Positions 43,203-46,156 of a DNA stretch of 64,000 nt are shown piece by piece. Below the pieces are notes generated by a model. That model was not told the origin of the DNA, made no database searches, and saw only the letters and a list, made by a program, of their open reading frames with translations. Both the position numbers and the translations under genes were made by a program. Origin of the DNA: Niastella populi (GTDB taxonomy: Bacteria; Bacteroidota; Bacteroidia; Chitinophagales; Chitinophagaceae); assembly GCF_002078015.1 (NCBI RefSeq), contig NZ_LWBP01000112.1:1-64000 (forward strand), given 5' to 3'. Position 1 is the first letter of the stretch. Each line of letters starts with the position of its first letter.

Positions 43203-44297
43203 TTAATAAGATTTCACCATAAACACCGCTTCTTCAATTTTCTTGATCTGCTGTACCCTGTCCATACTTCTGATAGAAGAGTTAAGTGTTAAGCGTATAT
43301 TCTGAAAGGCTGTATCTTTTTTTATTTCTTCGAGGCTGCGGAAAATGTTTTTTGCGGTGAGGGCGAATACCACGCCTTCGGCGGCTTTTTCGCGGGAATT
43401 GATAATCCCGATCACTTCTCCATTTTTATTGAATACCGGTCCGCCTGAGTTACCGGGGTTGGCCGATACGCCGATCTGGAAGGAGAGGGTATCGCCATTA
43501 TAACCGGTTTTGGCGCTCATATACCCTTCGTTGTAAACAATTTCTTCGCGGGGGAAGCCCAGGGTGAACAATTGTTCGCCAAGTTCGGTGCTGCTTTTAC
43601 GAATGCCATATGGCAGGGGGCCTACGCTTCTGAAGTCAGCATCTTCTATTTTTATAAAAGCAATATCATTTTCTTTATTGGTATATATAATACGTGATCT
43701 GAATTCCTGGCCCTTGTTGTTTTGTACAACGACGGTAGAAGAACCGCTTACCACGTGTTCGTTGGTTACCAGTATACCTTTGCCATCGACCAGGAAGCCG
43801 GTACCATTAAATTTAACCGGCTGGTTTTCGGGGCCTTTAGGCATACGGTCCTGTACGTCTTTTTTTATTTCGTTCGCTTTTCTGGCTATTTCAGATTTGT
43901 ATTCGCCTCTTAGTTTTTGCAGATCGTTGGCCGTTTTCTTCTGGTTAAGGTAAGTGGCCATACCGGCAATAAGCAGGGTAGTGATACCGGCGATGGAAGC
44001 GGCAACCGCCATAACGCGTTTGTATTTTCTCCAGATCTGGATAACAGTAGCCCTGGGCGCTTCTTTGATATCGCCCGATTCGATCAGGTGATTATGTACA
44101 TCGTGGAGAGTTGACTTGAAATTCTTCCAGTCGGCGAACTGGTCAACCTGCTGCAAAAACATAGTGTGTTCCACTACTTTTTCATCCACTTCCGGATTAC
44201 TTTTTCGCAGCTGCTCAAAAGAAGCCATTTCTTCGGGCGACATTTCACCACGGAGAAAGCGTTCGATAGCATCTAATAATTGTACATCTTGCATCAC
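43203..44297 (-). CDS. Membrane-anchored trypsin-like serine protease with anti-sigma-like N-terminus
   Basis: 364 residues. Residues about 1-85 are cytoplasmic and acidic, with the LLDAIERFLRGEMSPEEMASFEQL pattern common at the start of Bacteroidota anti-sigma and related regulators. A membrane helix lies at about 95-117. The periplasmic S1C protease domain follows, with His181 (TNEHV), Asp211 (ENDIAF) and Ser284 (NPGNSGGPVF). No PDZ domain is present. Its start overlaps the stop of the sigma factor gene by four bases, so the two are translationally coupled. Role as a sensor/anti-sigma protease is inference. Confidence 0.88.
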   Translation of the reverse strand: MMQDVQLLDAIERFLRGEMSPEEMASFEQLRKSNPEVDEKVVEHTMFLQQVDQFADWKNFKSTLHDVHNHLIESGDIKEAPRATVIQIWRKYKRVMAVAASIAGITTLLIAGMATYLNQKKTANDLQKLRGEYKSEIARKANEIKKDVQDRMPKGPENQPVKFNGTGFLVDGKGILVTNEHVVSGSSTVVVQNNKGQEFRSRIIYTNKENDIAFIKIEDADFRSVGPLPYGIRKSSTELGEQLFTLGFPREEIVYNEGYMSAKTGYNGDTLSFQIGVSANPGNSGGPVFNKNGEVIGIINSREKAAEGVVFALTAKNIFRSLEEIKKDTAFQNIRLTLNSSIRSMDRVQQIKKIEEAVFMVKSY

Positions 44298-44878
44298 ACG
44301 TCGTTGTTTTTAAGTTCGGCAAAGAATAATTTCCGAAGCCGCATCAGACATTTATATTTCTGATTTTTGGCGTTATCAGCGTTTGTATATCCAAAATGGC
44401 TGGCAATATCCGTCATGCTTTTTTTCTGCAGGTAAAATGCCTCTATCAAACTTCTGCAGGGTTCGCCCAGGTGCAACAATGCTTTTTCCATCATCTGGAA
44501 CTCTGAATTGCGCAAGCTGTGGTTATCAACTTCTTCCTCAACCGGTACGGTTTCATCCAAACCGATAAGGTTGGGAATGTATTTCTGCTGTTGCTGCAGC
44601 TTTTTGAGCCACAACCGGCGGCTTACTGAATAAACATATGTTTTTAGCTGACAGTTTAATTCAAATGAGCCGCTCTTCGCTTTTTCATACAGAACAATTA
44701 CAGTTTCCTGGAATATGTCCCGTGCATCGTCCGCCGATCCATTGTTGTTGATAATTAACGTTTGAACCATATTATAAAACAGTTTATATATGGTTTCAAC
44801 AGATTTGCGGTCGTTTACAGCCAGGCCTTTTAACAGTGCTTTTTCGTCGGTAGAATCAGTTTTCACGCTTTGAACCAT
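44294..44878 (-). CDS. ECF-type RNA polymerase sigma factor
   Basis: 194 residues. Region 2 (about 22-90) includes ADDARDIFQETVIVLYEKA. Region 4 (about 128-185) includes RSLIEAFYLQKKSMTDIASHFGYTNADNAKNQKYKCLMRLRKLF, shown by its helix-turn-helix. The loop at 105-120 is acidic. Followed at once by the protease/anti-sigma gene. The stimulus is unknown; outside-to-inside signalling via the protease is a reasonable guess. No TonB receptor is nearby. Confidence 0.92.
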   Translation of the reverse strand: MVQSVKTDSTDEKALLKGLAVNDRKSVETIYKLFYNMVQTLIINNNGSADDARDIFQETVIVLYEKAKSGSFELNCQLKTYVYSVSRRLWLKKLQQQQKYIPNLIGLDETVPVEEEVDNHSLRNSEFQMMEKALLHLGEPCRSLIEAFYLQKKSMTDIASHFGYTNADNAKNQKYKCLMRLRKLFFAELKNNDV

Positions 44879-45089
44879 TAATTAATACTCAATTTAATCA
44901 GAAGTAACCCAACCGGGTTGTAAAATTCAGCGCCTGCCCCGCCAATAAGGAGCCAAATATGGCCTGCGGCTGAAAGGTTGTATTTTTTTTTAGAAAAAAA
45001 TAAAAATTCTGGGGTTACCGGGGTTACCTTTTCCTCTTTCTTGTATTAACCTACAATAAATCATTTGTAAACAAACAAAAAACGGTACA

Positions 45090-45290
45090 ATGAAAAAACT
45101 GTTGTTAGTTTTAGCTATTGGTTCTTTCGTAGCTTGTAATGATGGCGGAAGCGCCGAGGCTGAAAAAACTGCTGCTGATTCAGCTGCAATCGCTCCTGCT
45201 GATACTGCTGCTGTTACTCCAGCACCTATTGTTGACTCTTCAGCTCATGCTACAGATTCAGCGAAAGTTGATTCTGCTGCTAAGAAATAA
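45090..45290 (+). CDS. Small putative lipoprotein, Ala/Asp/Ser/Pro-rich
   Basis: 66 residues. N-terminal signal MKKLLLVLAIGSFVAC; the last four residues FVAC are a lipobox, with Cys16 as the lipid anchor. The rest is low-complexity: ADSAA, APADTAA, APIVDSSAH, DSAKVDSAAKK. No fold is expected. It is 211 bases from the sigma factor gene and divergent from it. Homologues of this type are common in Bacteroidota, and their role is unknown. Confidence 0.75.
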   Translation: MKKLLLVLAIGSFVACNDGGSAEAEKTAADSAAIAPADTAAVTPAPIVDSSAHATDSAKVDSAAKK

Positions 45291-45605: not shown

Positions 45606-45737
45606 TTAGCGGTGGCCGTAACCTATATAACCTTGAGTTCCTTTACATCCGCCCTTAGCGCCTCTTGAGGCAGCACATGAAGTGATAGTAGCACCGGCCA
45701 GAATAAGCATAGCCAGGATAACGAGTGTCCGTTTCAT
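45606..45737 (-). CDS. Tiny lipoprotein, Gly/Lys-rich tail
   Basis: 43 residues from the ATG at 45737, preferred over a start at 45806. Signal MKRTLVILAMLILAGATITSC with a lipobox-like ITSC and Cys21. The mature part is AASRGAKGGCKGTQGYIGYGHR, with a second Cys. It is convergent with the Ala/Asp-rich lipoprotein. Not recognised as a named family. The length and signal make it real. Confidence 0.7.
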   Translation of the reverse strand: MKRTLVILAMLILAGATITSCAASRGAKGGCKGTQGYIGYGHR

Positions 45738-46156
45738 TTTGTGATTATTTAAAGTTTGACAATTGCCTGATGAATACAAGGGCTCAACGATCATCAGGTC
45801 ATTCAAAGGTTAACGGACTTAAGGGAGAGGAAAATTCGGTCGGATTGGATAGAAAGATTATCAAAATAACAAAGAATATCCGGTTCATGCAAGACTGTGC
45901 CAAAAATTTATTTTGATTGTATATAAATAGTTTTTGGTAATCGTTTCACCTTAAATACATTTAGCCGCAAATCAACTGGCAATTTGCAATTGGCAATTGG
46001 CAAGTCCCGCAAACAGCCGGGGGCGTATTATTACAACTTTGCCTATTGTATATTGCCTGTTGCATGAAACGGATTACAAGGTGTGCCACACTTGCTTTAG
46101 CACAGCCGGGGAAGTGTGGCACACCTTTGCAGTCAAAAAAACAAATCAATTTTCCG
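45738..46156. other. Spacer before mpl
   Basis: About 420 bases with no gene. The first part is AT-rich with the promoter region of the tiny lipoprotein gene. Near 45975-46010 is a CAATTGGCAATTGGCAA repeat. It then contains palindrome B at 46081-46124. Confidence 0.45.
46081..46124. repeat. GTGTGCCACACTT palindrome, copy B
   Basis: Arms GTGTGCCACACTT at 46081-46093 and AAGTGTGGCACAC at 46112-46124, identical to copy A near 8017. The loop is 18 bases and unrelated. It ends 32 bases upstream of the mpl start. Confidence 0.75.

Follow-up and report, generated by a model that had tools for sequence, protein, structure and literature searches.

Sequence analysis of the window (the whole stretch of 64,000 nucleotides, positions 1 to 64,000 of contig NZ_LWBP01000112.1 of Niastella populi) located two genes on the minus strand, as the initial annotation had placed them: a gene for an ECF-type sigma factor and, downstream from it, a gene for a membrane protease with an anti-sigma-like N-terminus. 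The features of the region are as follows.

44294 to 44866, minus strand: ECF-type sigma factor, 190 aa from GTG 44866 (194 aa from ATG 44878)
43203 to 44294, minus strand: fusion gene, 363 aa, with a cytoplasmic anti-sigma-like domain, membrane helix, stalk and HtrA-type protease
44049 to 44294, minus strand: anti-sigma-like N-terminal domain, residues 1-82, helices 2-15, 20-32 and 34-73 (profile matches, NCBIfam, AF2)
43950 to 44015, minus strand: membrane helix, approximately residues 94-115 (sequence, AF2, conservation)
43815 to 43940, minus strand: periplasmic stalk, residues 119-160 (alignments, AF2)
43305 to 43814, minus strand: HtrA/DegS-type trypsin-fold protease, residues 161-330 (PF13365, fold, triad)
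43755-43757, 43665-43667 and 43446-43448, minus strand: codons of the triad His180, Asp210 and Ser283
43206 to 43304, minus strand: conserved C-terminal tail QQIKKIE..VFMVKSY, where a PDZ domain would be (alignment, AF2)
44882 to 44910, minus strand: predicted sigma-dependent promoter of the sigma-protease operon, GGGTTAC-N15-GTATTAA (exact match)
45021 to 45049, plus strand: identical promoter sequence, directed towards the divergent lipoprotein gene (exact match)
45090 to 45290, plus strand: small Asp/Ser/Ala-rich lipoprotein, 66 aa, predicted sigma target (conserved divergent neighbour)

The sigma factor is made up of regions 2 and 4 only. The sigma70-ECF model TIGR02937, which spans most of the protein (residues 27-183), matched it above the cut-off of the model (E 2.7e-16), and the Pfam model Sigma70_r2 matched it at 7.4e-6. 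The -10 element of the predicted promoter ends 3 bases before ATG 44878, and the relatives have their start at the equivalent of 44866; both observations favour GTG 44866, which is more likely the start of the gene than ATG 44878.

The two genes had been described as overlapping by four bases. They do overlap, but an overlap of four bases requires a GTG start for the fusion gene; from the next codon, the ATG at 44294, the protein begins MQDVQLL... and the overlap with the sigma stop codon is a single base (TGATG). Among 188 distinct relatives the spacing between the genes ranged from -32 to +167, with -1 being the commonest value (49 of 188). The triad reported as His181-Asp211-Ser284, a count from the GTG, was found intact; the numbering from the ATG is given above. 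The description of a single membrane helix was also borne out, by the sequence and by the AF2 model of the fusion protein, which consists of three N-terminal helices, a helix at residues 83-116, another at 122-150 and an HtrA-type trypsin fold. Conserved small residues were found in the membrane helix (A98, A99 and A102, alignment A1). The stalk between the membrane and the protease is the most variable segment in the alignments and would be a possible cutting site.

The Pfam model Trypsin_2 (PF13365) matched the fusion protein at 1.1e-24, and among solved structures the closest in fold to its protease were the corresponding domains of HtrA1 and DegS (Z about 20, approximately 24-30% identity). 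No PDZ domain was matched by Pfam, and the chain stops some 33 residues past the protease, so that the enzyme is HtrA-like and not a DegS. These last residues carry a consensus among the relatives (QQIKKIE..VF.VK.Y) and were modelled by AF2 as a helix (346-354) and a strand (357-362). The N. populi genome holds one full copy of the fusion; three other matches cover the protease part only.

Conservation of the sigma-protease pair

The DNA analysed covered 205 homologue loci, in the Chitinophagaceae and in eight further families of the class and the order. The pair proved to be conserved across the Chitinophagaceae, and a sigma gene was found directly upstream from the fusion gene, on the same strand, in 202 of the 205 loci; the three others (L038, L088 and L196) are all cut by contig ends. 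Relatives of the fusion occur in 193 of 195 Chitinophagaceae genomes, most of them at full length, and relatives of the sigma factor in 189 of the 195. Outside this family, the class sample contained full-length members in a patchy distribution (about 36 genomes), and the order sample a full-length member in one genome only. The His, Asp and Ser residues of the triad were kept in all 188 distinct pairs. The linkage between the sigma factor and the fusion is far above chance, and the pair is old.

The conserved neighbours of the pair are the divergent lipoprotein gene, a convergent nucleotidyltransferase gene and the genes beyond it. No separate anti-sigma gene was found conserved among the neighbours in the relatives.

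Other families of the order carry related HtrA-type proteases (L109-L119), in which the protease domain, including its conserved C-terminal part, resembles that of the fusion, whereas the N-terminal region is a different and longer one (approximately 180-360 residues); no sigma gene was found within 1.5 kb of them. A distant relative (L086, 1386-1700) lacks the first two helices of the N-terminal domain, while the sigma factor, the third helix, the membrane helix, the protease and the promoter are kept.

The N-terminal domain and its predicted contact with the sigma factor

The initial annotation had proposed that the cytoplasmic segment of 85 residues is of anti-sigma type and stands in one chain with the protease. 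Scores against the existing family models fell below their cut-offs: zf-HC2 matched the window protein at 0.07, under its curated cut-off, with single members matching as weakly, and the NCBIfam model 'anti-sigma factor' matched 6 of 22 distant members, the best at 4.3e-5, also under its cut-off. When PDB sequences were searched with a profile of the N-terminal domain, chance matches to long helices were all that came up, and no solved anti-sigma structure was found.

The same profile was run against the N. populi genome and yielded four non-self matches. Three were the N-termini of genes located directly downstream from ECF sigma paralogues: a protein of at least 560 residues that has a single membrane helix, a TPR protein that itself fits the NCBIfam 'anti-sigma factor' model at its N-terminus (7.4e-9), and a FecR (E 0.4). 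The fourth was a P-loop protein (E 1.3). Because the matches are weak, that to FecR for instance, they count little individually; what carries weight is where three of the four are located. By a rough estimate, which assumes at most about 75 sigma-like candidates in 8.6 Mb, the probability of finding three of four beside a sigma gene by chance is below one in a million. Adjacency to the cognate ECF sigma gene, as expected of class I anti-sigma domains (ASDI), is likewise present in the 202 loci mentioned above.

A domain of this kind, together with a membrane helix, stands at the start of the genes that follow two further ECF sigma paralogues of the N. populi genome (L121 and L122, at G000:C206 and G000:C189); one of these genes ends in a large periplasmic part and the other in TPR repeats.

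Contact between the two proteins was modelled at loci where the sigma frame reads into the fusion gene, with stop codons taken as a residue. At L229 a natural stretch of 31 codons separates the sigma factor from the fusion, and this read-through was submitted to AF2 with an alignment of 26 joined rows and 66 rows containing one part only. The sigma factor and the N-terminal domain were packed with confidence (pLDDT 88, pTM 0.84): pLDDT was mostly 93-98 in both proteins and 53-64 in the intervening stretch. For the fusion protein alone, the halves of which lie on opposite sides of the membrane, pTM was 0.60. The read-through model supports an interface between the sigma factor and the N-terminal domain and is not proof of one. 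When searched with Foldseek and VIA the model matched sigma chains only, which makes these searches uninformative on the fold of the anti-sigma domain, and they found no solved complex that closely matches the way in which sigma regions 2 and 4, between which a class I anti-sigma domain is sandwiched, are placed in the model.

Mean-field covariation across the 188 pairs (Meff 151) is too shallow for contact prediction and was read for enrichment only. Among the top 20 couplings to the sigma factor, 9 fell within residues 1-85 against 4.7 expected, and the top-20 coupling mean of the N-terminal domain exceeded that of all 1000 draws of entropy-matched columns from the rest of the protein, indicating modest covariation with the sigma factor.

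From the positions of the profile matches and the packing model, the best reading of the N-terminal 80 residues or so is that of an anti-sigma domain. Homology, gene position, modest covariation and the model together predict that it binds the sigma factor. The proposal that one chain combines a protease with an N-terminus of anti-sigma type is supported, and neither the structure model nor the neighbourhood survey, both of which the initial annotation had named as checks, refuted it; the assignment of the segment itself has these results in its favour and the low family-model scores against it.

Predicted promoter and candidate regulon

Alignment of the upstream regions revealed two blocks of conservation, which occur in both orientations. 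The motif GGGTTAC-N15/16-GTATTAA was found upstream from the sigma gene at 12 or more of 14 positions in 186 of 187 loci, 148 of them exact, as compared with 12 at most for shuffled sequences; on the divergent strand it matched at 13 or more of 14 positions in 153 of the 187. The 8.6 Mb genome contains only two exact N15 matches, at 44882-44910 and 45021-45049. Across 60 family genomes the matches summed to 125, against 24 for the reversed control. The motif was also considered as a general promoter and rejected as such: 19 genomes in which the sigma factor has no clear orthologue gave 5 matches against 5 for the reversed control. It is likely, judging from these alignments and counts, that the motif is an autoregulatory promoter of the sigma factor. 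Nothing matching it was found in the open-access literature searched.

Away from the locus, motif sites recur before the same few families, including small Asp/Ser/Ala-rich lipoproteins. An exported protein family of 137-146 aa without a Pfam name is preceded by the motif in six members from six genomes: that of N. populi itself (L260, G000:C199:53327-53355) and those at L286, L314, L316, L321 and L329. Proteins of approximately 96 aa resembling AMPK1_CBM/CBM48 follow it at L288, L300, L312, L315 and L318 (and L319); as targets these would tie an envelope-type sigma factor to glycogen.

Some further observations were made in passing. At L298 two small lipoprotein genes lie in tandem beside the sigma operon, each with its own copy of the motif. 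At L317, in one genome only, the motif lies 225 bases upstream from an rpoD-like primary sigma gene, which may be due to chance. In the window, a short ORF at 45606-45806 on the minus strand contains in frame MKRTLVILAMLILAGATITSC, which resembles a lipoprotein signal.

Proposed mechanism and relation to known systems

The reading that we consider somewhat likely to be correct is that of a one-chain membrane regulator, in which the N-terminal domain would hold the sigma factor until the protease, activated by a signal, cuts the stalk and sets it free. The N-terminal 80 residues or so are predicted to keep the product of the upstream ECF sigma gene at the inner membrane face; one membrane helix joins them to the periplasmic protease of HtrA/DegS type without PDZ, an arrangement seen both in the sequence and in the fold. 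An envelope signal would then activate the protease, and the stalk of its own or of a neighbouring subunit would be cut. By analogy, it is plausible that the protease frees the sigma factor by cutting either the chain to which it belongs or a sister chain. The remainder would be cleared, as in the sigma-E pathway, by an intramembrane protease of RseP type and by cytoplasmic proteases; an RseP-type gene (Peptidase_M50) is present in the N. populi genome. The freed sigma factor is predicted to transcribe its own operon and a few genes for small envelope proteins from GGGTTAC-N15/16-GTATTAA promoters, and each burst would remake the inhibitor-protease so that the response shuts itself off.

Three findings count against such a regulator: the lack of a PDZ domain, which is the sensor of the signal in DegS; the loss of the first two N-domain helices in L086 even though sigma factor and promoter are kept; and the N-domain scores below the curated cut-offs. 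These low scores, and the failure of sequence searches to find a solved anti-sigma structure, would also suit a reading in which the N-terminal domain is no anti-sigma domain at all, the sigma factor and the membrane protease simply share an operon and the sigma factor is controlled by something else. This we judge very improbable, since the N-domain profile selects genes beside sigma paralogues, the sigma linkage holds only where the N-terminal domain is present, the domain packs confidently with the sigma factor in the model, and no other conserved candidate adjoins the pair.

If the N-terminal domain is an anti-sigma domain, the role of the protease could differ from the one proposed. HtrA proteases are general quality-control enzymes, and the protease could be the quality-control effector of the response rather than its switch, its own free amount being metered by its anti-sigma tail: whenever protease is consumed or undergoes self-degradation, sigma factor would be released and more protease made. 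This fits nearly as well as a one-chain switch, given the predicted sigma-dependent promoter of the operon and an invariant triad that suits an effector equally. We nevertheless regard it as rather unlikely: the rest of the candidate regulon consists of small lipoproteins and exported proteins that are not evidently devoted to quality control, and a membrane-tethered HtrA without PDZ is more like a regulator of the DegS type than a degrader. It is also conceivable that the periplasmic part is a ligand sensor and that a change of shape, passed through the membrane helix, frees the sigma factor from an uncut chain. The small conserved residues of the helix could serve helix packing and the conserved C-terminal tail could bind a ligand, but a pure sensor has no need of a triad, which is invariant in 188 of 188 pairs, and this possibility appears improbable.

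The one-chain regulator resembles the sigma-E/RseA/DegS/RseP pathway of Escherichia coli (reviewed in PMC10202637) in its ECF sigma factor, in a predicted anti-sigma domain that is cytoplasmic and carried by one membrane helix, in a membrane-anchored HtrA-type protease, in the RseP-type gene of the genome and in an operon predicted to be self-driven. It differs in that the functions of RseA and DegS, separate proteins in E. coli, would be joined in one chain, in the lack of a PDZ domain, in the promoter sequence, and in that no RseB-like gene was found among the conserved neighbours. With two players of the cascade merged in this way, protease activity and sigma release would be separable by single point mutations.

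In Bacteroidota, the Dma/Das systems of Bacteroides (PMC13088901) are a known case in which a membrane helix connects an anti-sigma domain with an unusual C-terminal domain, and like the fusion the Dma proteins are encoded with their ECF sigma factors; the C-terminal part of Dma is a beta-barrel on a disordered tether and not a protease. Regulators of the FecR and RsgI types are also single-pass proteins, which undergo successive cuts across the membrane, the last of them by RseP (PMC8144685, PMC12203970), and a FecR was among the N-domain matches in the N. populi genome, but they carry no serine protease domain. No report of an anti-sigma/protease fusion was found in the open-access literature searched, a search that did not extend to the main ECF reclassification paper.

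More tentatively, the pair could form a self-sufficient envelope-stress switch, with inhibitor and site-1 protease in one molecule, a PDZ-independent signal, stalks cut between HtrA subunits and refilling from its own promoter; we put this at somewhat less than an even chance. Such a switch, if it exists, would be a Bacteroidota counterpart of sigma-E/RseA/DegS with three proteins reduced to two.

In a published survey, class I anti-sigma domains could be recognised next to no more than 6% of the ECF genes of Bacteroidetes, the average being 32%, and the control of the remaining ones was left open (PMC7406223). For a pair that occurs in nearly all Chitinophagaceae, the fusion would be one concrete answer to this scarcity, and the system supplies a promoter sequence that can be tested together with a small candidate regulon.
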